This document shows positions 21,167 to 61,826 of a stretch of DNA of 64,000 nucleotides, piece after piece. The position numbers were made by a program, and so were the translations under genes. Every line of letters starts with the position of its first letter. Within the stretch, counting starts at the first letter, position 1. This DNA is from Alloascoidea africana (lineage: Eukaryota; Ascomycota; Alloascoideomycetes; Alloascoideales; Alloascoideaceae). The stretch is from the NCBI GenBank assembly GCA_030581615.1, contig JAKTTT010000025.1:124001-188000 (forward strand), in the 5' to 3' direction. The notes under the pieces were generated by a model, which saw only the letters and a list, made by a program, of their open reading frames with translations, searched no databases and was not told where the DNA came from.

Positions 21167-24134
21167 ATGCCGCCTGATAACTCTAGCAAAAAAGCCCAGC
21201 GTAAAAGAGTCCCAACCTCATGCACAGTTTGTCGAAAGCGAAAAGTTAAAGTAAGGAAGCCACTGGAAACCCCACCAAGTCTTTGCTTTTCTGTCTCTGT
21301 CTCTGTCTCTTGTTGAACCCATCACTAACAATACTCCGATCATACCGTAATAGTGCGACAGAGCGAAACCGTTTTGCGGAAATTGCGTCCGAGCTGGCGT
21401 AACAGACGCCTGCTGCTATGAGGAGCAACCTTGGGCAAAGCATGCTTCACCCAGCGACCAGAAGTATCTGATCGAGCGCGATCTGTTAGATGAAATCGCA
21501 AAGCTCAAGGCCCAGATAAAACACCTGGAGTCTGTGAATTCTACATCCCAATCTTCCGCAAACAGCTCGCCAGGAGATAGTTCTGAGCGACGTTCATTGG
21601 GGTCTATTGCTGGTTTACCTAATCAATCTGAGCCTATCACTAAAGTCTTGTCTGAACAGAGCAACTACAGTCAAGGAGATGGGAATGACGAACTTGTGGA
21701 CTTGGTGAAGAACTTTGACAAACTGGTGCTGAAAGAGGATCGCATCTTGCATTTTGGAGCAACAAGCTTTATCTCAATTCTCACAAACGACCCTTATTTA
21801 TCCGACATCTTTTCTCTGTTTGTCGATGCGATGCAAAAGAAAAAATGCCAAAAGTTGGCAGCATCATCGTCATCTGGCGGTTGTAATAGAACAGACATCG
21901 ATATTAATGACGCGGATGGCAAAGATCTATTTGCCTCACTCATTGGCTCTCCACTTCATCTCATAAGAACCATAGAATCAATGCTCCCACCAAAACGAAT
22001 TTGTGATTTACTACTGACTAGATTTTTTGAAACTTGTTACATTCTTGTGCCAATTGTTGACAAGAATTTCTTTATGGGCGAGTTGAACCAAATTTTGGAT
22101 GGAACAGAGAGACTTTCTCTTAAAGTCACCTCAAAACTGGGCTTTGCGATTCTCTCCCAATTTTTGTTCATTCTCAGGTTTGCATACATTAGCTTGCCCT
22201 CAAATTTCGATCGCTATGTTGGCCGAGGGCACACATGCAGCGAGAGCATGATTGCACTTTGTGATTCTGAGCATGTTATTGGGCCTGAATTTGTAGACAT
22301 TGCAAAATCATGCATTTCACAAACGGGCATGCTGAAGCGAGTCAGCTTGGAAACGATACATTCCTTGATGTTTCTGAGACTTTACAGATTGTATGCTCCG
22401 GAAGAAGCAGATGAAGGAACAGAAAATCAAGTAATAATAAGCATGATATTACAAATGTCCACAATTTTAGGCTTAAATAGGGATCCATCCCAGTTTAGTT
22501 TGATCCAGGACAAGTGTTGTCAGCACATTTGGCGGAAAACATGGTATCAAGTTTGTTTTCTCGACATGATTCAAGCGTCATCTGTTGGTTCCTCCCCTTT
22601 GATAACCTCCGAGACTCAGTACGATACACAATTGCCCAGTGATATTGAAGGTTGCGATCTGATTCCAGTTGAAAGTACCATTGTGAAATCTTTTAAAGTA
22701 CAGAATGAGGTGATCTGTATCACAAGAAAGTTAATGGTTCTGCTTACCAATCTAAAGATTCAACCAAAGAGATCAGAAATTGATAAGAATCTTGCAATAC
22801 TTGATTCACTATTAGAGACCTCTATACGACCATTCAGCGAGCTGTTAATCAGACCCGATTATACCGAAACGCAAGAGATGAAAACTGTTCGCGGGAATGA
22901 GATAAACATTCGAATGCAAGGTTTAATGACGATTCATGTTGTAAATTATGTCTTGTATTTGGCAACGTTAAAAAACAAAGACGGCTCCTCCGCAAAGGGG
23001 AAACACGATCCGGCTTCTCCGTATTTTGTCCGTGCGGTAGAATCGGCTTTGATTATGTTTAGGGTCGTTATTCATGTTGGCAAGAATAAAGACAGTTACA
23101 CTGGTGCCGATTATGCCATTCATTCGACTCTTTTCGGATCATGTTCTAGAATCTTACAAATGATCCAGTCGTTGATTATACGATATTCTATGAATGAGAT
23201 GCAAGATGGCATAACAACGGCTTTTAAAAGCGCGGAATCAAAAGGACTGGAAAATTTTCTACAGCCTTCACCTAATGTGAATCCAGGCCAGGTTTTGTAC
23301 CAGTATCTCACGGAATTGTACATAATTTGTGCTGAACTTTCTCAACAGAGCTACAGACCATGGAAAATATGTCAGATTTTACGGTTTTTCTTTAACTATT
23401 GTCATCAGAAACACCCTGTGCTTTTCCAAAAATCTGGCTCGATTAATACCAGTATATCTTCATTGCTAAGACAGCCGAAACGGGGCAACGATGGGAATAT
23501 ATATGTTAATGAAAATGGAAACAAACATGATCATGAGCATGATCTTGAAAAAGAAAAGAAAAAAGAAAAAGAAAAAGAAAAAGAAAAGAAAAAAGAAACT
23601 TTACAACTTGTACAATACTCTACTCAAGGTAACGAGAAACCAAAAGGCAACATGGAATTGGATCCACTACTTTTGGGGAACTTTTCATCATCATCTACAA
23701 CAGCACCAGATTCGCTAATCCAGCCCCTTTTACAAACAACAAATTTCTCATACAACTTTAATTTCACGGACATGGGCACTTTTGATTCTGGTATTGATAC
23801 CATAATGGATAGTCATGAATCGGAGTATTGGTCAAAGTTCCTCGATGAATCAGAATCCCGACTGAATAATTTCTACACCCCGTCTTTCCAATCAAGCGCC
23901 ACTCCGGCGAGAAGAAGCACCTATAGCGGAGCTCATGTCCAGCCTCAAGCTAGTGCACAAGCTCATGGCCAGCCCCAGCCCCAGGCTCAGTCTCAATCTC
24001 AGTCTCAGTCTCAGTTTCAGACAGGGCGCCAGGGATTCAGACACGAAAATGACCATCCCATTCTCTCGGATAGCCACACAAGTAACGTTCTTGAGGAGAT
24101 TCTAGATGATGACATATTTGCCAGCTTTCGCTGA
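21167..24134 (+). CDS. Hap1-like Zn2Cys6 transcription factor, array member 1
   Basis: A nuclear DNA-binding regulator of 954 aa, join(21167..21250, 21354..24134). The intron (103 nt, GTAAGG, CTAAC, TAG) lies between Lys28 and the third zinc Cys. The cluster is C19-x2-C22-x6-C29-x6-C36-x2-C39-x8-C48, preceded by KRKRVP-type basic residues and followed by CYEEQPWAKH and a coiled coil (about 65-90). This order is that of S. cerevisiae Hap1. The middle homology region has HFGATSFISILTNDP (about 138-152), IGPEFVDIAK and GLNRDP. A Lys/Glu repeat sits near residues 735-755 and Gln/Ser repeats (QPQAQSQSQSQSQF) near 875. The C terminus is acidic and aromatic (LEEILDDDIFASF), a candidate activation segment. 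No K/R-CP heme motif was seen. Target genes cannot be read from sequence. Confidence 0.9.
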
Positions 24135-24239
24135 AATTCGTGCAAAGTGCTTCCTGTATATATATTTCTTGTGTATGCGCTGCAGAATATAAGCTTAAAC
24201 AATGGGTGCACGGGTGTTTTTTTTCTTCATTTCCACCTT

Positions 24240-24251
24240 CCGATATATCCG
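24240..24251 (-). promoter_or_regulatory. Perfect Hap1-type site CGG-ATATAT-CGG
   Basis: The minus strand reads CGGATATATCGG. This fits the S. cerevisiae Hap1 consensus CGGnnnTAnCGG exactly (direct CGG repeats, six-base spacer, TA at spacer positions 4-5). It lies in the 234-bp spacer between array members 1 and 2, about 118 nt upstream of the second ATG. By a rough base-composition estimate about one such match is expected by chance in a window this long, so the location is the main argument. Confidence 0.5.
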
Positions 24252-24368
24252 CATCACCCAGCTCTTCTCCGGTAAATCCATCCCATTCTTAGATCTGCTG
24301 CTGAATATTAATCCTCCAGCAGCACCTGTCTGGAGGGCATAGACTACTAGAAGTAACCGGTCGAAACC

Positions 24369-27300
24369 ATGTCAGAGTCGTCGCCCGCGCCCTCGCCCTC
24401 GCCAGCCCTGTCGGCCCCACGGTCGGTGAAGCGAACAAGAATAAGAACGCCTATTTCGTGCACAGTCTGCCGAACAAGAAAAGTCAAGGTATGTGTCTTG
24501 TGTTGCTGACACTGAGCATGATTTGTAAACAAGTTCTGACGGTTCGTGATTGAATGGACAGTGTGATCGTGGACGGCCGGCGTGTTCGAGCTGTATCAGA
24601 TCTGGCACGGCCCATCTCTGCCATTTTGAAGAGCCTGTCTGGGCCAAGCAACAGTCTCAAAGGCAAAAGAATTCCAATCCACAGGAGAGCGAAAAATTCC
24701 GCGATGAGGTCAAATTCCTTAAAGAACGGATCAGAAATCTCGAGCAGATGGTAGACCAAACGAACGGAGCAGGATCTGGATATGTTCAGACCTCCAATGC
24801 GACCGAGGCCGCTTCGAAATCGCGAGCCCCAGGAGTAGTAGCTGAAGGACCCTTGGGACCCTCCCCTAGACGAAACTCTTTAACACCAGGAGCCGCCATC
24901 ATGTCTGGATCGGGCTCTGGCAAAGTCCTTGTCACGGGCTCGTCCTCCACGGGCCTGCCAGCAACGGCCGGAGTCGTTGGTGGCGTCCCGACAGGAAGCA
25001 ACGGGCTCTCGTTCATGTCCCAGCCCTTGTCGCTGCCTCCAATTCGACCGTTTATCGATAACACGATGAACCGGCATCCTCAGCAGTTGTACCGTCTGCT
25101 GCCCAAGACCGAATCCCACCAGCAACAACACCAGCAATCGCCGGACGGGGTTGGTTCTAACAACGGACTGCTTAACCAGGGATACACGCTGATGAACCAG
25201 CGATTTGCCACGATAAACAAGCCGCCATCTTCGAATCTGAGATCCACGACAGCTAGCCCGTTGCACCCATTTCTCCCGCCAAATGCTAATTCAAACACGA
25301 ACAGCTCAACTGTGCTTCTGAGTCCTGGCTCTACGACAACCAGCCTAGCGACCTCAGCAACGGGTTCATTCGCTGACGAGCCGGAAAATGCAAACAAGGC
25401 GAATGATCCTGTACTGCATATTGCTCGAACTTTTGCAGTTTACAAGAGAAGAGGCTCGAAAAGCATGTTTTTTGGACCTTTGACCTGGATGGCTCTTTCT
25501 ACAATGGACAATGAATTACACGAGATGTGGCACCGAATAATTGGGAAATATCATCCTGGTACAAAACTTCCTGGAAGTGGAGCAGCAGGAGGTAAAGAAT
25601 TCTCGAATGAGCCCTCAAGGGTAAAGAATCGCGAAAAGTTTAAAATGTACAAAAAGAGATTATGGATGCAGGGTCATCAATCTCCAAAGACCATTGGGGA
25701 TCATGATGATGATCATCATGATCATGATGAATTTTCGAAAAGAAAAGGTCAAAAGAGTGCGAGTGATGGACTGGGGATATTCAAAAAGCATTCATTACAG
25801 CTCATGTTGGCAATAAATGATCATTCTCTAGGTTCTGGCGAGAAAAAATCTGGTAGGTTATGCAGTGCCGAATTGATATCAGCGCTTCGGGAAGTTTTAC
25901 CTTCTAGACAGATTATCGACTTGCTTCTCCAGAGATTCATGGACTATATTTATTTTTATTACCCTATTATCGATATGGAAACGTTTCGGTCCGATGTTGA
26001 CCATCTGTTGAAAGATTTTGTGGAAAAGAAAGAAGCAAAAGAGAAAGAGAAAGAGGAAGAAAAACCAGAAAAGAAGAAAGAGGATGATGAAGATGAAGAA
26101 TTATCGTATACCTCTTCGCACAAAGTTAAGGATCAACATTCTGTTTGGGCCACCCTTTTAATTATCCTCCGGTTATCTTACCTTACATTACCATCAAGAC
26201 CCAAAGCAAATGCTAATGTGGACCACAATAATACCCAACCCAAGGGGTCCAGTACTAAAGACTCTATGCTTTCCGCCACCGATTCCTTAGAAAATTTAAA
26301 TCTCCTACTTTCAAGAGAAATTGGACCAGAGTATGTCGAGCTTGCTAAATGCTTCTTAGGAAACTTCAAGTTTAAAAAAGCATCTCTGGAAGTAATCCAA
26401 GCTTTGGTTTTTCTACGAATCTATGTAATGCTGGCTCCTGAAGATGGTGACGGTGGTGACGGTTCAGATAGCCAATCGTTAATGGGCATAATTGCGAGAA
26501 TGGCAGTGAGCGCTGGGCTTCATCGAGATCCTGATAGCTTCCACCATATAACCTCGAATCGAGTGAAACAGGTTTGGCGAAAGTTGTGGCACCAGATCTT
26601 GTACTTTGATGCTTTACAGTCTGTCCGACTGGGAACACCTCTGTGTATGGTGACCGATGATTATTACGATACAAAAGAGCCTTATCAACCTTTGGTGCCG
26701 CAGGAACAACAGTGCCATAAGTTTCGAGACTGTAGAAAAAATTCCCATGTTCATGATCCTGACGGCGAAGAGACAGAAGATACCAGTGAAACAGAAAAAT
26801 TTGTTATTGAAACTTACAAAACTCGCTGTAAATATACCCAACTTTTGAGAGATATCTCATGCACATTGTTGAAGATTAAGAAGCCACCAACCACTTCAAA
26901 AGTTGAAGAAACTCTATTAAAAATCACCGAGTTTCAGGAAACTACTCTGGAACCTGTTTTACAATCTAATGTCACCAACACCCCCAGCTTGATTGATCTG
27001 TGGACAAAAGTGCAATATTTGACTTACAAAATAGATCTCATCTCAACTGCATGGACCCTTCATTACGTTGTCTTCTTGTATAGCGAACTGCGATTACAGG
27101 AAGTAGATCTTGGACATTGGGCCATGCTTGAAAACGTGAGTCTGCAATTGGCAGATACTTCAATCTCATATCTTCAGCTGGTATCGCCTTTGCATATTTG
27201 TTCATCGTCAGATCAAGTCCATGTTCGTCCTTGCAGTTTGCAAACGCTGTTATCCCCAACCTTACTGGCCTCTGCAAACCGCATGATTCTCTTTATCGCT

Positions 27301-28122
27301 TCCTACATTTTCAGATACATACATAATACCGTTCCGTTTGCTCCAAGGCCAGATAAACAAGCAACAACAACAACAACTGGAGGCAAAATCTGTATTGAGC
27401 GAGATCCTAACAAACTGCACACAATGTGTAGAACTTTCGAACTCATGCTCAAAGAAATTTGGAACTTTAGAGAGGCTTATTATCATGCTTGGAGATTGCA
27501 GTGGGCTTCACAGGCAATTGCAGAAGAGGTGAATCGGAGCGCCAGATCCGCTGGTTTTGATACTCTACTTGTTGGTTTCTCCGATTCAAAGTCTTTATAT
27601 TTTGGGACTAAGCGGAAACGAGATGATGATAATGACAGCACATCTCATTTCCAACAGCAAAGGGATAGAAGTCAAAGCATTACAGGAGAAACTGGACCTA
27701 CTCTTTTCAAAGGCGATGTGGTGGTGCCTAATGTTTCAAATAAACCGGATCAGAATGTGAACTTATCCAGAACCTCGGAAAAGTTTACGATTCCAGAGTT
27801 GGTGCAGTCTGTTTCAACCACGCAATTGAATACAGCCGCTTCGAACCCAGCCATTGCAAATCTCACTGATCCTGCATCTAATATCACCTCTGCTCCTATG
27901 GTTTGGGACAGCAGCGCAGATGGCCAGGCAAGTAGCGTGGAGTCACTAGGAGTAGGATGGCCTCTTAACTTGTCAGCAGATGCGTTTTGGCTCGACTACT
28001 TTGATTCCGATTTTGTCGAGCTCTTGGACCCCATGGCTTATTCGTCTGTCAGTCCATATACACCATCGACAACATCCACAGATTTTACAAATGTCAGTGG
28101 CATTAATACCCATAGCGTCTGA
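24369..28122 (+). CDS. Hap1-like Zn2Cys6 transcription factor, array member 2 (longest)
   Basis: 1226 aa, join(24369..24488, 24562..28122), with a 73-nt intron (GTATGT, CTGAC, ACAG) at the Lys40/Cys41 boundary. The DNA-binding region SCTVCRTRKVKCDRGRPACS continues to HLCHFEEPVWAKQ and a coiled coil (KFRDEVKFLKERIRNLEQMV), the closest of the five to Hap1. An added Ser/Pro/Gln-rich region (about 85-275) explains the length. Then come FFGPLTWMAL, a His/Asp repeat (DHDDDHHDHD) and a Lys/Glu tract (about 530-555). The core follows with IGPEYVELAK, LAPEDGDGGDG, GLHRDPDSF and VRLGTPL. The C terminus has an acidic aromatic block (FWLDYFDSDFVELLDPMAY), a likely activation domain. It may be the conserved parent copy, which is an inference. 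A Hap1-type site lies in its own promoter. Confidence 0.9.
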
Positions 28123-29388
28123 TATTTGTATTTTAATGCCTTTTGTGATTTTTAAACGTGCCTGGCGATCCAATGCCTGTATCTGCTTGGTGTAGGTGTG
28201 TACCTCATCTGTACCCTGAATTAGATCTTGCATCGTCCACGCTCGGAGAAGTTATGGTCCGTGAAGATTATGGTTATGGGAAGCGGGGCTCATAGATCGG
28301 AATTGTGTGATTGCTTGTTGATTGGGAAAAGTTTGAGTGTAATGTGTTTGGTTGACAGACATGCTAATCTGGGCGGTTCGGTTAACGAGGGTTGCTTCAA
28401 TTAGTACATATAGAAGCTGTCTTGAGCTCTTATTTCCTTCGGCCACTTACCCAACAATTACAGTAAATACACTTTCTTTTTTTACCCCCTTTGGTGTTTG
28501 ACTTGACTCTTCGTCCTTCCTAACTGGTCAGAATAGGCAAATTGAGCGGATCTTAGCCTTTGCTTTATTTCAGTTTTAGGATATCCCTTCCAAGCACTAA
28601 GAAACAAGACCCTTGTTTCAAATCTCCAAGTCGTTAAAACGATGACTTTACAAAAGAAACAGGAAGGAAAGTTTTCGATCCATAAATAATTCATATGGTT
28701 TCATTTACTTTGCAACTTCAAAGGGATTGGCGCTTTCGGGATCTGCATTTGCAAGACATAACTACAAGAACGCATTCTTTTACTACTCTGTCGCTCAATT
28801 ATTAATCCAGCTGACCACAAGCATCGGCTCCTGCTGGTTCAGGTGTAAAGTCACAGGAATGTGACTGAGCTACCAGTTATCCCGAGTATAATGGTCAGAC
28901 TTAAGATCCAGAACGTATCTTTGAGATTGTACGTCATTACTACTTCAATAAAGGAGAGAAAGTGGAACCCCGATTTGTTCTCTGCAACTTTTTAACCTGG
29001 CAGTTGAATTGGACCGATAATAGGTGGATTTCACATAAAAAGATACGTAACAATAGTGATCATCATCGCAGTTCCGGGCAATGGAACGGCGGTAGTTGAT
29101 TGACCGAAATCTGCAATCAATAATGGCAGATTTGAAATGAATGCGATTTGCCGACACTTAGGTTCATTCCCCAGAGAATAAAATAAGAACCATTTCTCAT
29201 TAAATAAACTGATCCCTATTTTTCTTTTTCCTCCGTTTCTATGTTATATATAGTATTGTCTGGTTCATGTTCCAGCTCCTTATCTTCTTGCCTGCTGTTT
29301 TGTTTTTCTTCTTTCAAATTGGATATAATCCATAACAAGGATCTGAAGCAACAGAGTTGTAAACCTATTTTATTCAGCAGTGAAAACA
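28123..29388. other. 1.27-kb spacer between array members 2 and 3
   Basis: No coding segment is supported. Clustered CGG triplets occur near 28377-28386 (CGGTTCGG) and 29093-29100 (CGGCGG), but none with the six-base Hap1 spacing. No RNA gene was seen. Confidence 0.45.
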
Positions 29389-32139
29389 ATGCTAGAGAAA
29401 CGTAAAAGAGCTCGTCTTTCAAAGTCCTGTACAATGTGCAGACAGAAAAAAGTAAAGGTATGTAACTGTACGTTGGGTTCTTGACAATCCAGTTTCCATC
29501 TGTCAAAACGCTTCCATCACAAGCTAACGCTCAGACTTGTCAAGTGCGATAGAGCCAAACCGCGCTGTGGCAATTGTGTTCGTCAGGGAACAGCAGACCA
29601 GTGCAAATTCCTTGAACCAAAATGGGCAACTGTTGATCCCCTTCTGCAAGAAAGAGAGGGCTCGCGGTGGGAACAGCTACAAAAGGAAAACCAAGCGCTA
29701 CAACTTCAATTGAACCAATTGAAAGAAGCTCTCGAACGTGGAGTAGACATAAGAACCACAAATCCAACTCCAGGTGCTAGTGATCCGTCCTCAGTTTCCA
29801 GCAACAGCGGTGCGAACCTACAATTCAAGAGCCCTTATAAAGATTCCATTCCTGCCTCGACAACTACTGTCAACAGTGACGACGAAGATGAAGCTGACCC
29901 ATTAGTAGACTTTTCGGATACGTTTCAAACTGTACGGATTGGTTCTGGCGTTGAGGCAGAGTATGGCTTTAGTTATTCAATTCTCCTAAACCATGAGATA
30001 TTACAGGAAATTGGCCTGTTAAATAAGAGCCGACATGTCCAGACTCCAACATTTGGAAACGCAAGGCACCAGCCTAAAAACCCAGGAGGAGATTTTACTC
30101 CGTTAGTGATGAGGCCATACACACAAGAATATCAGGCACTGCTAGATAGGGCTGTGGCTATTTGTCCTTCGGCGTCTGCTTGCATAGTGTTGATTGAATA
30201 TTTCTTTAACTACTTCCACAGGTTGTACCCAGTAGTTGAGGAAGAAAAGTTCCGACTAGATCTGGATACAATTGTGAGCTTCACAAGCCACAGTCAAGAC
30301 GAATTTCTGCAGGGGAACTGTTTAGAATGGTCAATCAATTCATGGCATGATTTTCCCACGGCCGGATTATTTCTGATTATACTGAGGCTGTCTTTTTGTA
30401 CTTTACCTCTGACGCTAAGTAAAGAAGACCAGGAAGAAACGTTTCGGCTTCCATGGAACCAAAGTCTAAAAGTTCTAGTTGATCAGGATGTTGAAATTGG
30501 GCCAGAATTCGTTTCCGTTGCAAAACAGTTTGCACTTGGGCTCACACCTGGCGCTCCAAAGGACAGTAGTTTTGGTATCCTGCAGTTTTATTCCCTATTG
30601 GGCTTTTACCAGCTGATTTCTCCTGAAGATGACAAAGAAAATGGGTTAATGGAAGGCAGCGGAAATGGAAACTCTTTATTATACGGATTCACGATCCCAC
30701 TGGCCATATCTATGGGTCTACATCGAGATAGCATGGTTCAGAAACATTTCAAGCAAGAAGTGATGAGATTTAACCTTCAAAAGATTTGGTATTTTATTCT
30801 CATGGGAGATGCTATTCAATCTCTAAATCTGGGCAGGCCCTTAACGATCAACGATGGGTATCTGGGCTTTGGTAAAACCCAATTAATTGCTCCTCCGATG
30901 GAATGCCGAGATGATGGCCAAATGGCAATGCAGATGCGTAACTTGTGCACTTTCAACACAATCTGTGTGCTGATTCGTAAATCAGCACAATTACTATTCC
31001 GGATTAGACATCCCCCTCGAAGATCAGAAATCGAGACGCAGATACAGGAATCAAAACGGGTGCTGAACATAGAAATCGAAGGTCCAATTCAAAGACTTTT
31101 CAAGAGTTTGAGTGTTGATATCGACGAATGCCTAAAGCTGACAAGATACGAGATGATTTTTCTGATCCAAATGAAGTTTTTAACAGTTCTTCACATTCTA
31201 ACGTTGTTTGGAATACTAATTCTTACTTGTGAGCCAGGTGAAAATGGCCTGAGGCAAGAGTATTTCAAAATGGCTATAAGAGAAATAACAGAAACGTTCA
31301 TATATGCAACAGATTTCTTGAAAAATAAGAACTTTTATGGGAGCGAGTCAATCAAAACTTTATCACCTTTGATGCTCCGTTGCATCAATAAATCGTACCT
31401 GATTCTCATATCTATGATGCTTAGGAGCAATTCTCAACATTACTATAAAGATAAAGCAGCAAGAAACAATGAAGCTGAAGATTACGATTACGATTATGGC
31501 TACGACGATGGGATTTCACCAATGGAAGGTTACGTAGAACAAACTTTTGAACCGATGCGGAGGAAGAGCAAAGGAAAACACAAGGCAAGGGCTAAAAGGC
31601 ACAAGATATCCTCCAAAGCGGCTGCACCTAGAGTGGTAAAGACAAAACCGTCGGCGTCCAACATCATGGAATACATCAAGAATTATCATGAGAGTACAGA
31701 AGATCTACTGCGCCTGTTTCCGCAAACGTTAAAACTATCAAAAGTTTTAAACATTATGACCACCGAACTGGATACAAGATCAAAAGAAGGAGCCAAATCA
31801 GCGGGGGAGGAAATTGGTACCTCGCTTCTCGACAAGCTAGAGTCAGCCGGCGATGAAGAGGAAAAGAAGACCGGCGGAAGCCGAGATCGCATTTTGAACA
31901 CTAACCATATCATATTTCTGGACACTCCAACGGTAGAAAAGCCAATCGGAATTTTGCATGGGACGAGAGAAAACTTAATGCTGGTCGCTGATCTCAAAGA
32001 CCAAGAGAAGAACGATGTTGCTTCTGCTCCACCGAAAAGACCTCGCTTTTGGGAGCTGTTTTTTGAAATAGCCGATCCTAAAGTCAGTAATGATGGTAGT
32101 TTAGAAGACGTAGAGCAAACAGATTTACTCTGGAATTGA
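29389..32139 (+). CDS. Hap1-like Zn2Cys6 transcription factor, array member 3
   Basis: 887 aa, join(29389..29457, 29545..32139), with an 87-nt intron (GTATGT, GCTAAC, CAAG) at the same codon boundary as its neighbours. Exon 1 is only 23 codons (MLEKRKRARLSKSCTMCRQK). The cluster continues KCDRAKPRCGNCVRQGTADQ-C and then KFLEPKWAT and a coiled coil (about 69-90). The middle region has FQTVRIGSG, IGPEFVSVAKQF, ISPEDDKENG, SMGLHRDS and LNLGRPL. It lacks the HFGATS block of members 1 and 4 in clear form. A basic stretch (RRKSKGKHKARAKRHK, about 640) may be a second nuclear signal. The only Cys-Pro pair I saw (ICPSA) lies in a hydrophobic context, unlike a heme motif. Function beyond transcription control is unknown. 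Confidence 0.9.
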
Positions 32140-32427
32140 CAAGAGCTTTCAACTGGATCAAATGAGTAACTAAACTATATAGAGGCATCGGCACCCGTTT
32201 CGGCAATGGGCCGTGATTTGGACTTGGGGACTGGAAACATCCATGAATACCCTTCCAACCACCTCTTCTCATCTCCTATACAAAAACCTCGGAAAATCCA
32301 CTTGGCTCACAAACTTGTTTCTTGAAAACACTCAGAGCAAGGCTTACCCTTTCCCCGACTAGACAGCTGAGGTTTCTACTTATGGAATCGCAGGCTGCTT
32401 CGACTCCTTGCTTACTAAAAAAGAAAA

Positions 32428-35140
32428 ATGGTGAGAAAGCGTACTCCGATAGCTTGCTCATCATGCCGTCAGAGAAAAGTGAAGGTAAGTATCCAATACT
32501 AAAACGCAAGGCTTAGGATGGCATATTCTGACTCGTCCAATCGCTTATCTTGTTTTGTAGTGTGATCGTGTAAGGCCCATGTGCGGCAATTGTCTTAAGG
32601 CTGAGACTGGTCATTTGTGTCGATATGATGAACCGGTATGGGCAGCCCCACACCCAAAAGGAGCGAGCGCTATTGAGCAACTACGAAAAGAAAATGAACT
32701 TTTGTCGGTTAGAGTCAAACAACTTCAATCAGAGGTTGACCGAAAGAGGTGTCTGCGACGGACAAACATGGTGAAGAAGGTTGAATATCCTAGGTTCAAA
32801 GACGATACCAAAAATGACTCCACAGAAAACGGAAATCAAAAGTTGGAGGATTTAATGTCAAAATTCCAGACTTTACATCTTGGAAGCGAATTTACTACGC
32901 ATTTTGGAACTACCAGTAGAATATCTATCATTTTGAATGACCCTGCACTATCTGAGGCCCATGATGTTGTTGTAAAGGCAAAGCGAAACGTGGAAAAACT
33001 CCAAGGGGTAAGTTTTACAAACTACAAACGATTAGACGGAATCTCACTTGGCCAGGCCCCTACTACGATATTCACCCGCAATGATATACTCAACTTCAAG
33101 GAACATTGCGGGCTCCTTAAAACCATGGAAGGAATTCTTCCTCGGAAACAGCTTTGTGACTTGCTTCTTGAAAACTATTGGGACAATATGAACGTCATAT
33201 GGCCAGTACTAAGCAAGGAGTACTTTTTAACGAAATTGAACGAGACCAGCTCTGTAACCAGCTCTGGGAGGTACAAATTTCATCCTACTGAGCTTAATGA
33301 TTTCATCACTTTGGGGACATTTTTATTGATATTGCGGTTTGGATACCTAACTCTGCCATACTTGGGTTCAGATTCAGAGAAAATACTATCCATGTCGAGA
33401 TACAGCAAATTCCGACCGCTGGTTGAGAATGCAGTAGAAATTGGTTCAGAGTATTTTGACATCTCAAAGGACGCCTTGCAGCACACCTGTTTCTTGGAGC
33501 ATGCGACGTTTGCGACCCTACAATATCTGATTTTAGTGCGGATCTATCATCTAATTGCCCCGGAAGATGGTGATGGAATCGATGCGGAGGATAGCACGAT
33601 TTTATTAGGGACGATAGCCCAAATGGCTATAACTATGGGGCTCCATAGAGACCCCGACAACTTTCCAGAGATTACGGACGAAACCTTTAAAGATCAATGG
33701 CGGTTCACTTGGCAATATATTGTGGCAATCGATGTTCTTCAAGCAAGCAATCTGGGAAGACCATTGATTATAAATTACCTGTTTTACGACACCAATCCGC
33801 CATGTATGAGCGATTCCTCCCTTGTTAGTGACATCCATGGGAGCATTTCAAAACAAGAGTTTTACGCGTTGTACTCTGGATCTATTGTTTTGTTAAGAAA
33901 AGGTGTAGAGATACTTTCAAACCTCAAGTATGATTCTTCAAGAGACGTAATTGAGGATTACGCACAAAAACTCTTGGCCTTTCTAAAGAACTCGCTTCCT
34001 CAAACCTCAGAACTCTTAGTCTACACGTCACCAGAAGACAAGCTCTTAATGTCGGCTAGAATAAACCTATTACAAATGAGGATTTTAATCGTAGGGCAGG
34101 TTTATATTTGCTACTATATTCTCTACCTCAGTTGTAAACCATACGAAATTGAACGGGCACACTATTATTTACGATACGCTGTATGTGGAGCACTGATAAT
34201 TTTCCATCTCACAAAAGAAGGCATTAGTAAATGCCAAGATTATTTCGGTCATGGATCCTTGGCGATTCTGGCGCCCAGCGTTGTAAGAACAACCCAGAGA
34301 GCTCTTCAGATTGTCATTTCGATTTTGTTACGGAGCGAGCATGAACAGTACAAAAAGACTGTCCCACCATTGGATTTCATGTATGGGGAATCAGAGTTTT
34401 TGGACAAATTCGGGTTATCTTCAGACTCTCTGGTAGCAATTGAGAACCCTCTCATTTACTATGTGAAAGAATTCTATGAGATTTCGCTAGGGCTTTCCGA
34501 CCGGTACTTTCATTTGTGGAGAATGACCCATGTGGTGTGGATTTTGATGGGCATTGTAGAGAAAAGACAAGGGAGTGTTACATTCCAAAATAAAGACGTT
34601 GCTTCAAAAGGAGACGAGGAGCAAGAGAAGGGAATACTTGTGCTCTCTGACGATAGCGTTGTTCGTGGCTTGAATGCCCCAAATTCCACAGCAGAATATG
34701 ACGAAATAAAAAGTATAACAAAAGTTGTTACACCGACTGACACAAAAATTGTAACGGTTCACAAGAGTTGGCAAGAGTCTAGATTTCACAGCTCGTCGAG
34801 TTCCTCTTCGATGCCATCTACCATTAACACTGTGACCACTACCACGACACCTCTGATGAATTGCAATCTTAACGACAATGCCAGGGGTTCTGAGTTGGAT
34901 TATGATTTCCTGCAATACTATAGTGGTCAGCAACCGCAAGAGACGCTTCGGGATCAAGTTAACCAAGCGAGGGCCGGGCCTGATTTGAGCGGCTGTTCAT
35001 TCCGGCTCAATTACTACAATGATCAAGGAGAAAACGAATTATCGCAGACCGACAGAGAGTTGATGGCTGAGATTCTTGGTGAAACTTTAATATTTGATCA
35101 ATCTTTTTCTAACAATTTTGGAGGTTTTTCTTTTGCTTGA
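32428..35140 (+). CDS. Hap1-like Zn2Cys6 transcription factor, array member 4
   Basis: 878 aa, join(32428..32484, 32561..35140), with a 76-nt intron (GTAAGT, TCTGAC, GTAG). Exon 1 is 19 codons (MVRKRTPIACSSCRQRKVK). The cluster then runs CDRVRPMCGNCLKAETGHLC and RYDEPVWAAP, with a coiled coil (EQLRKENELLSVRVKQLQSE). FQTLHLGSEFTTHFGTTS, IGSEYFDISK, IAPEDGDGIDAED, MGLHRDPDNF and SNLGRPL mark the middle region. The C terminus is acidic and aromatic (LMAEILGETLIFDQSF). It starts 288 nt after the stop of member 3. It is followed by the large gap before member 5. Confidence 0.9.
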
Positions 35141-38100
35141 TGATATAAGCTGTGTGTTGCACCCTATTTCCGTTCCTTCAATTTTTTTTCAATGACCTTT
35201 TTCTCATGGATTGAATACTATTCTTGTTTAAAATGTATAGTGTAATAATGCTTCCCTCAATTAACGCAATTCTTTAGAAGTTACAGCTAAGTTTTGTAAC
35301 CTTACACAACGGTAATCGTTATGCCCAGTTATTCATAAACCTGCTCGACTCGCGTAATTTACAAGCCCACCGTTAACAACAAAATAGAAAGAACCAGCTT
35401 TTGTTCTAGGCTTGCGGACGTTTTGTACACCATTTAACTCGTTGTAACTACAAAACTGATGAGATAATATAATTAATCAACTTAGAAACTGTTGTCGTAC
35501 TCCTGGGGAAAGATCAGCTTTCATCAAAAAGCTTGTCCAAAACCAAAGGTAATGTGTGATCGAGTAACCGAGTTATAAATTAGAACAATCAATTTTAAAA
35601 TGATTTGTTTCGCACTGAGCAAGAGAAAAGGCGGAGAAAACAAGTCTGAGAACTAGCATGATCAGTGTGGTGTAATACCCACAAACCTCATTCTCAGCAA
35701 CTCTCTTGCAGATCTTTTAATTACCGTTCGAACGGTCTTATTCATCCTCTTTAGATACAAAACTAATTTTAATTGATTTTTTTTTTATAATCTATTGGAA
35801 ATTTAAGCTACAAAAAATGATATGGCAAGTTTAAGCTAACATTTCAAAACTGAAGATGAGCCTAAGGTAGTTTGTCTTCGTTAGTGAATATTTCCTTAGG
35901 CTTCTTTGTTGCTGTGTATTAGGCTTGTCCGAAACTAAGTAATTTTATATCCTATCTATGAATACTGTTATGTGGCCAAAGGAAACAATGGATAGATAGC
36001 CCTTGAAGAATGTCCTGGATAGAGGAAATAGTGAATATTATTGAAGAATAAAAATGTAAGAGCTTGTGCTGTTCAGCAAAAACGAAATCATTTTCAGCTT
36101 AATAGATCAATCTCAAACGTTAAAATCAGTAATTACTATTATTATTGTTAAGAAAAGATAATTTGATAGGCTTTTTAACCACTTTCTCATTATTTAATCT
36201 CAGCTCTTCTGAAAATATAAAAATCAAGATTGAAGGAGCTGAATCAAGTACTGTTGTTACTAGATTCTACTTGGAACATCGACAATAAGACATCAGTTAA
36301 GTGGTCACTCAACATTTGAGGATAATGGGGCCATTTCAAATCTTACTGAAATTCTGAGCTCCCTAACTTGAAAATTTGGGTTAATCTCGAAGTGAGATTT
36401 CTTATACTTAGAAGCAATATAAAAATAGTCTCAGTATAGGTTAGTGGTGGGTGTTTCACTATTACCGTGAAGTGGGCTTTTAGCAGTTGTTTGTTTTCAG
36501 CGTTCTTTCGATGCATTTTTCTCACTATCTTTCCGACCATCATCGTTTCGAAGATGAAATCTTTCTGTAATCGCATCCGAAAGTTACAGTCTTTTTGTTC
36601 ATGGAATCGCTTCCTTAATACCTTCTGTAGAGTATATCTAATTTATTAACACGTACCTCAATGTAAGATTTTCAGCCCGGTTTCATCGACTTATTTCTAC
36701 TAGAACTGGAAACGAAGTAGAGTTTCTTGCGATAGGTCTTGTGACTGTCTAATTCGCCATTTATCCTTTTCTATCAATAAAGAAAAACTCGAAACATAAA
36801 GAGCTTAATGTATAAGCCTGAGGAGTGGATTGATTACGGATTTTTCAGTGACTGTTATCTCAGTAATCTGTATTATCCTCTCAGTTGTTGGGCATAGTAT
36901 CGTTTAAAAATACGCTAACCAAAATCATTTGGGTTCCAGAACAAAAAAAGAGCAATTGAAACGTTTTTCAATTGAAAAGTTCCGTAAAAGAAAAAAGCAA
37001 AAGGCAACAACAACTAAATAAATCTGTTGGAGCAATGGGCGCTCAAGCTTCACTGCAATCGTCGGCCCTATGAAAAACAGCTGGATGTACGCATGCCAAC
37101 CTTCTCGGTAGGTTAATGGGGAAAATAGGGAGAAAATCTTCCCGGTTCTCATGTTGTTAAGTTTTTCTAGTCCAAAAATCAAGAATTTCTATTCAGCGTT
37201 TGCGCTTCGATACTTACATATCCCAGGACTTCACCATCCTCGAACACCAGTAGAATTCAAATCACCCCTTTATAAAGAGCTTCGCCAGTATCAAATAATT
37301 GTTCATACACACTCAGTCTCCAGTCTCATGACGACTCTATTGGAAAAACCACGTTATCTTCTCAAAATGCTCTAATTTTTGTGGCATCATACTCGAATGA
37401 CCAACAAGGAAAACTCCGTGACTGCAAAAAGACAAATTTTTGAAGCTCTTACGTGTGACATTTATCCAAATTTTTTCTGATTTTTATGTTCAGTTTCTTT
37501 TCAAGAAGGTTGTTTGAAAGGCAAGCAAATTCATCTAGAGTCGAAAGCAAACAGGAATGGCAGTTGCAAGTCTAGAGACTCTCGGGAATGACCGACCCTG
37601 GAATATGCCCACCATTATCTTGGGTTTCTGATGAAAAATAATTCGGTTTTTCACACAAAGTTTTCAAATAGGAAATATTCTTAAGTTTTTGTTTTTTATG
37701 TAAGGCTCCCTATCCGCATAGATGCTCGTTTGCTTGCATTTCTAGCAAGATCAAAGAAAATATCATCATACGAAAATGGCAATTTGTGTTTTTGTACAAA
37801 TGCCAATTTGATAGGATAACAAGAGAGAAGAATAATAATTCAAAAGCATAATCACTTAACTCTACGAGGACGAGGCGATTTTGGAAACAATGAAAAGCCA
37901 TTAAAGTTGGCATAACAGGTTTCTAGAAGCTCCAAGTTTAGCACTCTCCGCACATTGTCATATGAAAAAACTATATTCTACACAGAAAGTGCCGAGTTTC
38001 TTCATTCGGTCCTACTACTTGTTTGCGTTGGCTATAATAGATTATGGCTTTCAAATGTTTTGATAGAGAATGTTATTCACAAATAGTTCAGCATCCTAAG

Positions 38101-39494
38101 ATCAATAATGATCTTCAACATCTGTAGCGTAACTTCTATTAATCAAAGCAGCTAATTAATGTCCCCATGAAAGCGTATTCTATTGACAATTCGCCATCTG
38201 TAGTTTCTTGTTTTGCAATGTTTTAAGCGGCTGATCTTGCAACATGGGGAAAAGATCAGTTTCTATTTTATTTTCATGCACCACCCATCAAAGTATCCAG
38301 CCTGGCGAAATTCTACAACGAATTATTTCGATCCATTGCCTCAGTTGAAGTGATTCTTTCTTCTTTCTAGTAAATCTATCTCAAAGAGCTATTTGTGGGG
38401 AGGCTATTATTGTTCTGCTTATTAATTATGCGAATTAAAGCAAGCCAACGATAAATCAAAGTTCCAGCCAAAGAGCGCTTGCCAGCGGCACTGCAATTAC
38501 CATCAGATTGTAGACGCAAGAAAAGTTACAAAATGACATAATGTGTTTTCCTTTACTTGCCAAAAAGGAAAAAAGGAGAAATCCTTGTACTGGTCTTCTA
38601 TTTTCTTTCTGTTATTATATTAAACTTGAAAAAAAAAATGTTCACAGCATCCTGGTTAGGATAAAGACAGATTTCTGACAACCATTGTTCCTAAAGCTGG
38701 TGAAAAAAACGGAAATAGCTTCCCTTTGCTTTCTGATGATATTATAATGAGCTTTTAGCATTGTTCCAGAACAAAAACAGCCATGGTATTCCGTTCCAAT
38801 CTCTTTCAATACCAAGAACCGTCATAACGTCTTTACCCACTATTGCCTACCGTCACCAATCATTTTCACGTTACAGTCGTATCAATGTTTTGTTCTAAAC
38901 GGTTTACACTGTTACATTGTGTATCTGGAAATATGATGCAGATAAACTACCTAAACAGTAACTCCGACTAGATTTACGATAGAAATAGATAATATTTTCT
39001 GTAGGAAACAAGATTGGATAGACAAGGTTATGTGGTGTATGAGATTATGGTATGGACCACTGAAAAAGGAAATCCGCAGTTTGCGAACAGGACATGCACA
39101 TAGACGAAATTGGAAATCGAAGTGGGCGTGCATGTAAGAGCTTGTTTTTTTTTGGTTTTCACTTGTTTGACACCTCCACGAGCTCTTCTGCTATTGGAAA
39201 CTGGGCCAATAGCCAGTCATGTTGAATCAATTAAATGCCAAAAACGCCGTGACCTAAACAAATGCCCTCTATGTTGCTTATTGTTTCTATTGTGATTTTC
39301 TAGAAGACAGATTTGGATGCAGATAGATATAAAAAGATTAAAGCTGCAGGGTATCTCAGCTTTAGAGCACCACCAATTTTTCATTCCTCTATATTATTGT
39401 TCAACCAGCAAAATAGCTCGGTACACATATCTTCCTCATTGTTTCTGCCTTTTAATTTTTCTTCTTCTTTGTTTGTCTTTGGCTGTCTTCTTTA
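35141..39494. other. 4.35-kb AT-rich gene-free gap inside the array
   Basis: I found no frame with a zinc cluster, a GLHRDP-type motif or another domain on either strand, and no tRNA-like box. The stretch is visibly more AT-rich than the genes around it. The last 200 bases (CT-rich, from about 39410) are the leader of member 5. It could be a long regulatory region, a place where an array member was lost beyond recognition, or a non-coding transcript. The sequence does not decide. Confidence 0.5.
35723..35736. repeat. 14-bp perfect palindrome with everted CCG-N6-CGG
   Basis: ACCGTTCGAACGGT reads the same on both strands. It places two CGG triplets in everted orientation six bases apart, a geometry that Zn2Cys6 dimers can bind. 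It is 583 bases after the stop of array member 4. Confidence 0.5.
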
Positions 39495-42474
39495 ATGCCC
39501 TACACTCGACGACCTGGGGTAGCCTGCCACATTTGCAGAAAACGGAAAGTTAAGGTACGCTTACAACCAACCAAGCTTGACTTGAAAATTATCATAAAAA
39601 GAAAACTGTCTAATTTCAACGTTTGTCTAGTGTGACAAGGGAAGGCCAACCTGTGTGACTTGCAAAAGAATGGGTTTTGAGCATCTTTGTGTGTATGATG
39701 ACACTCCAGCCTCTGTGAGACAGGGCAATGAAGCAGAGCTTGAAAAAGAAAACTCCAACCTCAGGGACCTAATAATGCAACTACGCTCAGAGTTAGAGGC
39801 TGGGATAAGCGCTACTACAAACCTGTATTCGTCCTCAACTCTCGCAAGTAACTCCAGGTCATCTGCTCCCAGAACTACCGAAGGGAATATTTCCAGTGGT
39901 GGCGAAAATCAGACCCAAGAGCCGTATCAAGATTCAGGATTGGCCATCTATAGTGATTACAAACACTCTTTTGATGGAGGTTTTAAAATTGGCAAGACTG
40001 GAAACGCTGATCCTGTAATTAACCTTACTAGCAATTTTCAGAACTTGAAGGTCAGAAATGGCACTATTGAACATCTAGGAGCAACCAGCAATCTGTCACT
40101 CAAGTTAACCGACTCGGCCCTTTTCAAAGTGTTTCAAAGTGTGATAAAGAGTGACGAAAACAAGAGCCCAAAGTCTTCTTCAAAAAGGCGAATTCCAGCA
40201 AAACGGGCATACAGTTCTCTTGCAAACAGCGACTCGAAAGAGCCAACAGCTTTTGAGGAGATAGACCGTCATCATTTAATTCAGCAGGTAGAAAGGCTCA
40301 TACCAGACCAGAGTATATGCTCATTGTTGATAGACCATTTTTGGAGCTTTGCCCATTTAATACTAGGGTTTATCGATAAGGAAGCATTTATGAAAGATTT
40401 TTCTAGCATTGCCACCAGTACAACCCAAGATCGAATAAAATTTAGCCTAAATACAGACTCATCGTTTGCGACTTTATCTCTTTTTCTTCTTTTGCTGCGT
40501 TTCGCTTCAATAACATTACCTAGAAGTTCTGGTGCCAATATCCGTCAGATTGCATCGATGCCTAGGTACCAACACTTGAAGCCACTTTTTGAAAGCGATA
40601 TCAGATTGACGCCCAATTATGCTGATCTGGCAAGAAAAGCTCTTGCAAGTTCTAATGTTCTTCAAAATCATTCATTCACAGCCTTGCAATGCTTGATTCT
40701 ATTGCTATATCATAACTTTATCTCTCCCGAATTTAACGAAGAGGAAAACCAGGAGGATTCAAACTGGTTATGGGGCGGGGTGGTTCAAATGGCCCTGTCC
40801 ATTGGCCTCTACAAAGATCCCGACATTTATCCTCAATTGTCGGAGAAAACCAAATACTACTGGCGTGCGATATGGTCACACATATTGATGAAAGATACTT
40901 TACTTTCAATGGATTTTGGTCTTCCCTTAGGCATTAAAAAAGATTATTTCGACACAGCGATGCCTCATCTCTTTCCCGGAACCGAGAAGAACCCCCAATT
41001 TATCTCTGATATGGAATACTTTAAAAAAGAGCATGAGACTGCACTTTTAATTCGTGAGGGCTCTGATTTATTGATGAATTCAAAATCTGCACCCAGGAGA
41101 TCCGCAGTGACCGATTATAGCAAAAAAGTGCTTGAGCGAATCCTGACTTCAATGCCAGATCTTGATGAATTACTTGTCTTTACACATCCTAATGATGCTG
41201 TTCTGCGAACCGGAAGAATAAAGCTTTTACTTCTCCACCTTTCATTATTAGCTCATCTTTACACAATCTATTACTTACTTTTTCTACATACGGGTCAAGA
41301 TGAATCCGAATTGGCGGAGGGACATTTAAAAGTTTGCCTGTCTGCCATGCTGGTTATCTTTAATTGGTCGTTGCAAATAATGACAAAAAGCGATAGCTTC
41401 TTTGGATATGAGTCGGGGTCTATATTGGCGCCTCAAGTTTTGAGAACGGTAGAAAAAGCCTCTCGTTTCATTATTTCATTTGCACTACGAAATCAAGTAG
41501 CAAAAAAAAATGATAACAAAACAATGTCCCTCGAGTTTTTGTCAACAAGAACAAAGCTCTATGATGAGCTCAACATGTCATCGGAAATCCAAAGGGTAGC
41601 AGAAAAAACCGTAATGTGGTATATAAACCAATTTAACACAATATGTGAATCGCTTTCATCAAGGTTCTCAATTGCTAGAAGAGTGAAGCAGATACTGAAA
41701 ATATGTATCAACATAATGGATAAATGTGATGATCTAGAACAACTGAAATCGCTTCTCTTTGAGGACGAGAAGGGATCGGGGAAGAGTAAAGCTCCAATAC
41801 TTGAACCTCAGACACATTTGAATGGTACTCAGCAATTCTCCCAGATCTCTACAAACTTTTTCAAACAGCGACAGCAGAGTCTCTCTGTACCCAAATCTAA
41901 ATCTTCTAAGCCTTATATTCTCAGATCAGAAACACTTCCTGAATCTGCCCCATCCTCCTTATACAACTTTGCCACATCACTGAATTCAACTTTCCAATTC
42001 CCTTACAACAACCCAGCTTTGCAGCAGCAACAGCAACAGCACGGGAACATTTCAACTCCAACTGTGCCTTTTTTGCAAGGACCCGAAGAACCATCAGTGG
42101 GTGGTCCAATTGGAAATGAATTCCACCAGCCGTACATCTCTACATTGCCCACCAATCCCGGCTTTTGGAGTGATGACTTTCAAGACAACCAAGTGCACAA
42201 ATTTTTGCGAGGTCCCATTCCTGGTCCTGGCCAATTTGCGAGCAGCTCGACGTACCCCAGCATCGATGGTGCTTCAAGTCAAGTTAGAGGTTCAAGACAA
42301 GCTGATGAAGAAGAAGGGATTATAGGATTGGATGTCGTAAGTGATTTGATCAACAATAACAATCCACTAGTTCCTCCTTTGAGCAACATTACAGATTCTT
42401 TGACATATTTCACTCCTAGAAATGTCAATCCTGAGGAACACCCTGAAAATGAAACCATGAACAGAAAGCATTGA
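39495..42474 (+). CDS. Hap1-like Zn2Cys6 transcription factor, array member 5 (most divergent)
   Basis: 967 aa, join(39495..39554, 39631..42474), with a 76-nt intron (GTACGC, no perfect CTAAC, CTAG) at the shared Lys/Cys boundary. The zinc cluster is ACHICRKRKVKCDKGRPTCV then TCKRMGFEHLC. The Trp that follows the cluster in the other four (EPVWA, QPWA, EPKWA) is absent here (VYDDTPASVR). A coiled coil follows (EAELEKENSNLRDLIMQLRSEL). Diagnostic blocks drift as well. FQNLKVRNGTIEHLGATS is kept, but IGPE is LTPN, APEDGD is SPEFNEEE and GLHRDP is GLYKDP. The C-terminal 200 residues are Gln/Asn/Pro-rich with an aromatic-acidic piece (NPGFWSDDFQDN). It is an intact frame, so it is likely expressed, but probably has a changed specificity. 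Confidence 0.88.
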
Positions 42475-42666: not shown

Positions 42667-43362
42667 CTATAACTCATCTTTTACCCGTTCCTTTGATGAA
42701 TAACTTGAAGCTTGATAAGGTGTTGCCTCTTCTTCATCCAATGACAGTGTACCACATGCCACAATCGCAATATCCTGCTTTGGCCTTTTCATAATCTTGG
42801 TTTTAGTTGCTTCAATCTTCTTGACAACGTCGTAACCTTCAATAACCTGTCCGAAAGCCACATTTTTCTCGGCCAACCAATGAGTTACAGTTGTGGAGAT
42901 GAAAAACTGGCTGTTATTTCTGTCTTTGCCGCCATTCGCCATACATAATCTTCCAACCCTATCGTGCTTCACGAGAAAGTTTTCATCTTTGAAAAAGGGG
43001 CCATAAATCGAATGTCCACCCTTCCCATCTCCTCTGACAAAATCGCCACCTTGGACCATAAAACCTTTAATAATTCTGTGAAATTTTGAGCCGATATAAC
43101 CCTGTCCTTTAGTCTGGATTCGTGTCAGCTGGAAAAAGTTTTCGACAGTTCGGGGGACCACAGTGCCAAAGAGGCCAAAAACTATCCTTCCTTCATACTC
43201 GCCATCAATTTCTATATCAAAGTATACTTTGTGCGTTATTGGTGGATCCTGTGGTAAGTCCAGGGGTGCCTCATCTTCCTCTTTCGTTTCGAGACCCAGA
43301 GATTGAAGCATGAGACATGCCAGAAGAGCTAGGTAGATGGAGATCAGGGAGAGAGTTTTCAT
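42667..43362 (-). CDS. CPR5: ER-resident cyclophilin, peptidyl-prolyl isomerase (CPR5 type)
   Basis: A 231-residue cyclophilin that should assist folding in the secretory pathway. Residues 1-24 are a signal peptide ([20 protein letters not shown]). The isomerase domain spans about 43-212 with the catalytic/ligand residues R96 (FHRI), F101 and Q104 (GFMVQGGDF), F153 (QFFIST) and W162. The residue equivalent to human CypA H126 is Asn (EKNVAFG). The chain ends VKDEL, an ER-retrieval signal, where S. cerevisiae Cpr5 ends HDEL. The gene has no intron. It is convergent with the last Hap1-like gene, about 190 bases apart. Cpr2, the other secretory cyclophilin, is the main alternative but lacks a retrieval signal. 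Confidence 0.92.
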
Positions 43363-61138: not shown

Positions 61139-61826
61139 TTTATAACTAACGATGGAAAGAATGAGTCCAGTATCTAGCCGAAGAGAAAGAAGAAAGAAGG
61201 AAGAAGGAAGGAAGAGAAGGAAGAGAAGGAAGGAAGGAAGATGGAGGTATAAACGAAACAAGAAATATTTATATACAATCTGGTTTATTCCATAGGCTCA
61301 GCCATTTTCAACTCTTCTTCAGCCCACTTCATTTCCTCAACTCTTTATATAAACACACAATTTCAGCCTAGATATTTATATATATTTCTTTCTCCCCCTC
61401 TGTTTTCCACAGAATATATACCTTCACTCATTTGACTCCACTGTATATCTACAATTTATACCTTTCTCTTATCCTCTTCAAGGTCCCCGGATCCTTCAAG
61501 GCTTAGCCCCTTCGCAATTGCCTGTTTGGGAATAATCTTGCTGCTCGGCCAAAGCTTGTTTTTTTTATTTTTATTTTATTTTTGGGTCTAAGCACGTTTG
61601 GGCGTATGGATGTTATATTCACACACATCGATTCTCAAATCTCATCATGGTTTAACGATTTTTAAAAGTAAAAAATCACAACTTGTTTTGTATATTAGTA
61701 TATTCAAGGGTTTGGGTTTCTTTCTAAGTTGTTGTTTTCTTGGATTGCAAAACAATAAAATGGGAAAAACAAAGGTTCTATCTAGTCAAATTCAATTCAA
61801 TTTAATTTAAATTTTTTTTTGACAAA
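61139..61826. promoter_or_regulatory. Spacer between the two GAS genes
   Basis: On the minus strand it starts with a long CT-rich leader (61187-61243, units of CTTC) directly upstream of the GAS gene. A TATATAAA element follows near 61266-61275 and another TATA-like run near 61344. The remainder is T-rich 3' flank of the upstream copy. No other gene was seen. Confidence 0.5.

Follow-up and report, generated by a model that had tools for sequence, protein, structure and literature searches.

In textbooks Hap1 stands for heme and oxygen regulation in yeast, and a row of five large genes for Hap1-like zinc-cluster proteins in Alloascoidea africana raises the question of what such an array does and how it came about. 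The stretch analyzed here, referred to as the window, comprises 64,000 nucleotides (C25:124001-188000, contig JAKTTT010000025.1 of an assembly of 23.18 Mb in 138 contigs), and the five genes occupy positions 21167 to 42474 of it. A first-pass annotation had read them as a self-contained family of five, possibly heme and oxygen switches. We find instead that they belong to a family of 18 genes, all of whose products lack the heme-regulatory motif (HRM), and that an exact Hap1-type DNA site stands shortly ahead of four of the 18, which is the new observation of this work. The reading we favor, tentatively, is that of an old Hap1-type family without HRMs, some members of which may regulate family members and the genes NFS1, ISD11 and ISU1 through a retained Hap1 site.

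The array itself is present as first described, with five intact genes head-to-tail on the plus strand whose spliced lengths match exactly. Each consists of a short exon 1 ending in the zinc-cluster stretch and a single long exon 2; the one intron, 73-103 bp long and in phase 0, lies at a common codon in all five, after K-V-K and before the C-D of the zinc cluster. Gene 1 (954 amino acids, 21167-24134) is divided into exons 21167-21250 and 21354-24134 by an intron at 21251-21353, gene 2 (1226 amino acids, 24369-28122) into exons 24369-24488 and 24562-28122 (intron 24489-24561), gene 3 (887 amino acids, 29389-32139) into exons 29389-29457 and 29545-32139 (intron 29458-29544), gene 4 (878 amino acids, 32428-35140) into exons 32428-32484 and 32561-35140 (intron 32485-32560) and gene 5 (967 amino acids, 39495-42474) into exons 39495-39554 and 39631-42474 (intron 39555-39630). 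Gene 3 requires an AAG acceptor, which looks like ordinary usage in this genome rather than damage because the family member C1_434k requires one as well.

Searches of the genome recovered the identical 18 genes with every query, whether gene 1, 2, 4 or 5 or the divergent member C56_68k: five on C25, five on the minus strand of C70, a pair on C27 and a single gene on each of contigs C1, C10, C14, C19, C56 and C91. The family thus extends over three arrays (of five, five and two genes) and six single genes. The survey, like the tree and the motif counts below, covers among fungi the genome of the window alone. In all 18 the reading frame is open and the intron sits at the common site. Because this intron splits the zinc cluster, a six-frame search with the Pfam Zn_clus domain detects only four of the 18, one of them in the window, so that most genes built in this way are concealed from six-frame domain scans. 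Beyond the 18, the next genome matches are weak; the best of them, C37:164251 (query gene 2, E 6e-4), showed no zinc cluster in the surrounding 3.3 kb and was not counted. Literature searches for yeast arrays of Hap1-type or Zn2Cys6 genes turned up no description of a Hap1-type array, most of the subscription literature being out of reach, so that absence is unproven. Adjacent large zinc-cluster genes of a different subfamily, about three in number, are found at TAC1-HAL9 in Candida albicans.

The DNA-binding domain is of the Hap1 type. Compared with solved structures, a profile of the 18 domains matches those of yeast Hap1 (1hwt, 2hap, 1qp9, 1pyc) at 86-91 bits, against 47 for Cep3, 40 for Rsc30 and 36 for Gal4, and the zinc cluster, W-A linker and coiled coil of Saccharomyces cerevisiae Hap1 (CYP1) all align with it; the best phmmer matches of gene 2 are likewise Hap1/CYP1 structures. 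Identity to Hap1 across 47 ungapped residues runs from 30 in C70_20k down to 15 in C91_27k, a value scored too low owing to one extra residue ahead of the last cysteine, and amounts to 26, 28, 23, 24 and 22 for genes 1 to 5. The six cluster cysteines and the adjacent R15 and K20 are invariant in all 18 proteins, and the arm ahead of the first cysteine and the W-A linker vary, with W-A missing in some members including gene 5. The divergence of recognition residues reported earlier holds for the arm and for the linker after the last cysteine, but not for the CGG-contacting block, which is well conserved.

Outside the zinc cluster, a structure model of gene 4 (mean predicted local distance difference test score 67.3) displays a coiled-coil-like helix at residues 34-72, in agreement with the coiled coil first noted, followed by a middle domain that is largely helical; the C-terminal fifth is modeled with low confidence. 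Its best solved fold match, yeast CBF3 chain 6gyp_C (E 8e-4, query template-modeling score only 0.31), is weak, yet it makes sense: subunit B of CBF3 belongs to the Zn2Cys6 proteins and is also matched by the family domain profile. The Fungal_trans domain scored above the Pfam cut-off in all five window proteins, the only ones scanned (29.1 bits in gene 1). Two of the middle-region blocks listed as shared by the array, GLHRDP and LG-PL, fall within this match and are hence not Hap1-specific; presumably they are general to the domain. Divergence among the array members is strong, as had been claimed, the other four being only 21-28% identical to gene 1. The C termini are nevertheless not wholly unrelated: an (F/Y/W)W-x2-(F/L/Y/M/I) motif, its pattern set after the alignment was inspected, occurs in the last 200 residues of 12 of the 18 members (0 of 1000 shuffles), though not in genes 4 and 5, and may be part of an activation domain. 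Neither the HRM [KR]CP[VIL] nor CP.DH was found in any of the 18 proteins. Judged by sequence, the family is best called one of HRM-less Hap1/Mrr1-type Zn2Cys6 transcription factors, where the likeness to the Mrr1 group, an HRM-less Hap1-like lineage according to the available text of PMC9491583, is that of a Hap1-like domain in proteins lacking heme motifs.

As an a priori test, the Hap1 site CGGnnnTAnCGG, which the accessible part of PMC9491583 gives as the motif of the same kind of promoter scan, was sought in the 18 family promoters, each taken as 1000 bp except for one of 886 bp. Four genes carry an exact site within 250 bp upstream: gene 2 at -129, C70_20k at -245, C27_228k at -94 and C56_68k at -89. 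The site of gene 2, CGGATATATCGG at 24240-24251 on the minus strand, with 117 bp between it and the ATG, is the sole exact match in the window. From the 167 genome matches 0.13 family sites would be expected (P about 1e-5); shuffled family promoters contain 0.148 on average, with none of 500 shuffles reaching four, and when nine rearranged patterns were tried on 500-bp family promoters, each scored 0 or 1, compared with 4 for the Hap1 motif. A scan of 65.9 kb of other loci of this genome returned no exact site. When one mismatch is allowed, sites turn up in eight of the 18 family promoters at 500 bp, against a mean of 2.1 in shuffles, none of 200 of which reaches eight. The Hap1 DNA site thus occurs ahead of several genes here, in likeness to S. 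cerevisiae Hap1, and in C. albicans the same motif scan places one near the gene of Hap1/Zcf20 itself, at -878, as stated in the available text of PMC9491583.

Three of the four exact family sites read CGGAGATANCGG, a narrower motif that was picked post hoc, after the family promoters had been seen. It matches the genome seven times, and six of these matches lie within 250 bp ahead of an ATG, namely those of the three family genes, of ISD11 (114 bp; best match LYRM4), of an ABC1/COQ8-like kinase (121 bp) and of the cysteine desulfurase NFS1 (238 bp). The products of NFS1 and ISD11 belong to one complex, of which ISU1 is the scaffold. ISU1, looked up after these two, is present in two copies, on C3 (388299-388670, minus strand) and on C26. 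Ahead of the C3 copy, by roughly 300-560 bp from an approximate start, three overlapping CGGGCATAGCGG are found at C3:389230-389259; this stretch is a 9-bp tandem with four CGG half-sites. The chance of such a triple site in one of two copies is about 0.009, before allowing for cytochrome c as a second test family. For site contexts, 100 of the 167 genome match coordinates were listed and few contexts were read.

The sequences show that the 18 genes have one origin, one gene structure and a conserved Hap1-type DNA-reading domain and that several of their arrays have neighbors in common, so that an ancestral array was evidently copied along with chromosome segments, its copies diverging afterwards. 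The family proteins would dimerize through the coiled coil following the zinc cluster and, we infer, bind CGGnnnTAnCGG as dimers, while activation would proceed through the acidic, aromatic C terminus. Some members would regulate other members or themselves, and some would regulate NFS1, ISD11 and ISU1, genes of mitochondrial iron-sulfur assembly that have the rare site in their vicinity. As first suggested, the members may have related but distinct targets. This regulon is put forward as a testable hypothesis, its function predicted from sequence; the form of the site named for a lacZ reporter construct is CGGAGATATCGG. The rare site common to the surroundings of NFS1, ISD11 and ISU1 leads to the concrete prediction that iron-sulfur cluster synthesis is under a Hap1-type factor.

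Several observations weigh against a regulon of this kind. Fourteen of the 18 family promoters have no exact site, and the C56_68k site is a promoter site only if translation begins at the nearest ATG, since two in-frame ATGs farther upstream would place it within the reading frame. The genome holds 167 matches to CGGNNNTANCGG compared with 591 for the backward-read control, and the seven matches to CGGAGATANCGG do not exceed the nine of its backward-read pattern. The signal is hence the location of the sites and not their number, because the broad motif is rarer than its control and the narrow one no commoner. One of the seven narrow matches is situated inside a CRAL/TRIO open reading frame, about 215 bp past the first ATG. 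Each of the sites near ISD11, ABC1 and NFS1 falls between two divergently transcribed genes, with the opposite starts at 141 bp (Apq12-type), 306 bp (JAB/MitMem_reg) and 107 bp (Bud3_N), respectively, which makes their targets ambiguous, and the NFS1-region site is closer to the Bud3_N gene (107 bp) than to NFS1 (238 bp). The three overlapping sites at ISU1 could represent a short tandem repeat, and the C26 copy is without a nearby site among the 100 of 167 matches listed. At cytochrome c, the second follow-up family, the one copy read (C17) has no exact site and only two one-mismatch sites. As to these motif counts in general, the shortage of Hap1 sites relative to the backward control may reflect composition or avoidance. 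The cytochrome c gene at C17:412463-415756 appears to be interrupted by an intron close to the 5' end, and its two one-mismatch sites lie upstream of the second exon.

The strongest alternative is that the sites arose by chance or serve a different factor that binds CGG, and that the family is made up of Mrr1-like regulators lacking HRMs whose targets are unrelated, for instance genes of efflux or metabolism. It is a serious possibility, if not a probable one. The absence of heme motifs from all 18 proteins and of exact sites from 14 of the 18 promoters would be in keeping with it, as would the divergent promoters, in which the NFS1, ISD11 and ABC1 sites may serve the opposite gene, and the statement, in the part of PMC9491583 available, that Mrr1 relatives without the HRM stand as near to Hap1 as do those bearing it. 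Against coincidence speak the enrichment of the a priori motif in family promoters, about 30-fold above expectation, and the fact that NFS1 and ISD11, whose products act in one complex, each border one of only seven genome-wide matches. The regulon reading can also be drawn wider, as a partly self-wired network of 18 paralogs that has lost or never had heme sensing, still reads the ancestral Hap1 site and controls NFS1, ISD11 and ISU1, its members perhaps being sensors of iron-sulfur clusters or sulfur, the array itself being an old unit of the genome that has been duplicated two or more times; taken jointly, these propositions strike us as rather unlikely. If true, 18 Hap1-type factors without heme motif would show a single sensor becoming a large network while its DNA site was kept.

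That the family should be a set of heme, oxygen or sterol switches, several Hap1 orthologs sharing out tasks in the manner of Candida glabrata HAP1A/HAP1B, is improbable. Because the HRM is missing from all 18 proteins, the family lacks a defining property of a heme-activated Hap1, and heme acting by way of the known motif is an unlikely signal for the middle domain. By comparison, seven such motifs are counted in S. cerevisiae Hap1, five in C. glabrata Hap1A and six in Hap1B (available text of PMC11580460), and C. albicans Zcf20/Hap1, which activates heme uptake genes, also has them, whereas the related Mrr1 group is without them (PMC9491583, in the part accessible). The one cytochrome c promoter read also lacks the exact site. 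What such switches would explain is the Hap1-type DNA-binding domain, and there are precedents: the C. glabrata ohnologs split ERG regulation (PMC11580460, available text), and mutants of Yarrowia lipolytica YlHap1 (YALI0F17424g) respond to oxygen supply (available parts of PMC10797999 and PMC13112681). The known systems differ from the present one in gene number and arrangement as well. S. cerevisiae has one Hap1 gene, whereas 18 are found here, 12 of them in arrays. In C. glabrata, Hap1-type paralogs were likewise retained after large-scale duplication, but as two genes described as ohnologs and not as an array in the available text of PMC11580460. YlHap1 is termed a Hap1 homolog and named as a single gene, and an array goes unmentioned in the accessible text of PMC10797999, PMC13112681 and PMC3222671.

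The history of the arrays was traced in a maximum-likelihood tree of the 18 members (812 columns). Contrary to what their adjacency might suggest, the five window genes do not form one clade; in each case the nearest kin is on a different contig, gene 1 pairing with C10_1k (support 100/99), gene 2 with C70_40k (100/100), gene 3 with C70_36k (100/97), gene 4 with C91_27k (100/99) and gene 5 with C70_20k and C27_232k (95/95), while six family members make up a weakly resolved group. Forcing a single clade was rejected both for the window five (approximately unbiased test, p = 0.0002) and for the C70 five (p = 5e-6). The placement of gene 5 rests on the tree, not on raw identity, which for C70_20k and C27_232k is higher to gene 4 (41% and 39%) than to gene 5 (33% and 31%) and thus weighs against it. 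In five near-relative pairs containing a window gene, amino-acid-changing differences amount to 0.386-0.481 per site and synonymous ones to 0.83-0.88, which is saturated; over all six near-relative pairs the ratio of the two is 0.3 to 0.6 (synonymous 0.83-0.90, also saturated). Since amino-acid-changing differences are well below synonymous ones, the sequences indicate that the window genes are maintained by selection. That the array arose in this species by a recent tandem amplification at this locus, as five adjacent genes on one strand might suggest, is extremely improbable in view of the low identity of the other four members to gene 1, the closer kin of each gene on other contigs, the rejected five-gene clade and the saturation of synonymous sites even among nearest relatives.

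Gene order points in the same direction. In transcription order, the C70 array reads gene 2-like, gene 3-like, an importin-like gene, two other family members and gene 5-like, which for the matchable pairs is the order on C25. On C27, two Hap1-type genes are followed by a cyclophilin gene (minus), a ubiquitin-like gene, MSS51 (plus) and an HSF-type gene. In the window, gene 5 is adjoined by a cyclophilin gene (42667-43362, minus strand) and followed by MSS51 (47796-49124, plus strand), so that these two syntenic markers from outside the family stand in the same order and orientation relative to a Hap1-type gene as on C27. Because the window genes pair across contigs and C27 bears the cyclophilin and MSS51 copies, we conclude that the array predates one or more large-scale duplications, having been copied with chromosome segments before its copies diverged, whether by whole-genome duplication, hybridization or segmental copying. 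The family and its history are in our view well supported.

Further observations concern these arrays. The importin-beta-like gene, between the second and third Hap1-type gene of the C70 array (C70:31112-33622), was recognized by eye, without a family search. Two related genes lie past the C27 and the C70 array, respectively (C27:239989-241401 and C70:15686-17764; 42-53% identity, the Pfam HSF domain being named in the C27 copy only), and no relative was seen past the window array. In the window, a gap of 4354 bp with 35.7% GC (35141-39494) separates genes 4 and 5, in which no family remnant, tandem repeat or open reading frame of at least 100 codons was found; a decayed sixth gene was considered there and rejected, tblastn with the 18 proteins and a six-frame profile search yielding nothing beyond chance. 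One-mismatch Hap1 matches number 26 in the whole window compared with 13.5 expected, many of them in coding sequence, and nothing is drawn from them. VPS13, a phosphatase and a GH17-type gene lie on the upstream side of the array, and on the downstream side, besides cyclophilin and MSS51, are genes for a peroxiredoxin, an RsmB/F-type RNA methyltransferase, a CSN5-like protein, a ubiquitin hydrolase and mitochondrial uL11, as well as two GH72 genes. This tandem pair of GH72 glucanosyltransferases (59507-63470) has another copy that adjoins the gene 4-like Hap1-type gene on C91.

Elsewhere in the genome, doubled genes were noted for the complex I 49-kDa subunit (C18/C34), a cytochrome c-type protein (C17/C58), an ISU1-type protein (C3/C26) and the C25/C27 block. 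For a yeast in which a complex I gene has been retained, this suggests that the whole genome was duplicated or that it is of hybrid origin. Ten neighboring segments of the window were also tested, and six matched C25 only, being without a second copy among the matches listed (23 of 67 candidates scored, so that copy numbers are lower bounds). The first-ranked solved structures for the 49-kDa subunit are NUCM chains, which we take to be those of Yarrowia. Its two genes (C18:87591-91403 and C34:226683-230495) agree at 389 of the last 390 residues, with matched DNA 82.8% identical and N-terminal presequence regions that look unrelated, a pattern that reflects either strong constraint or gene conversion following an old duplication.

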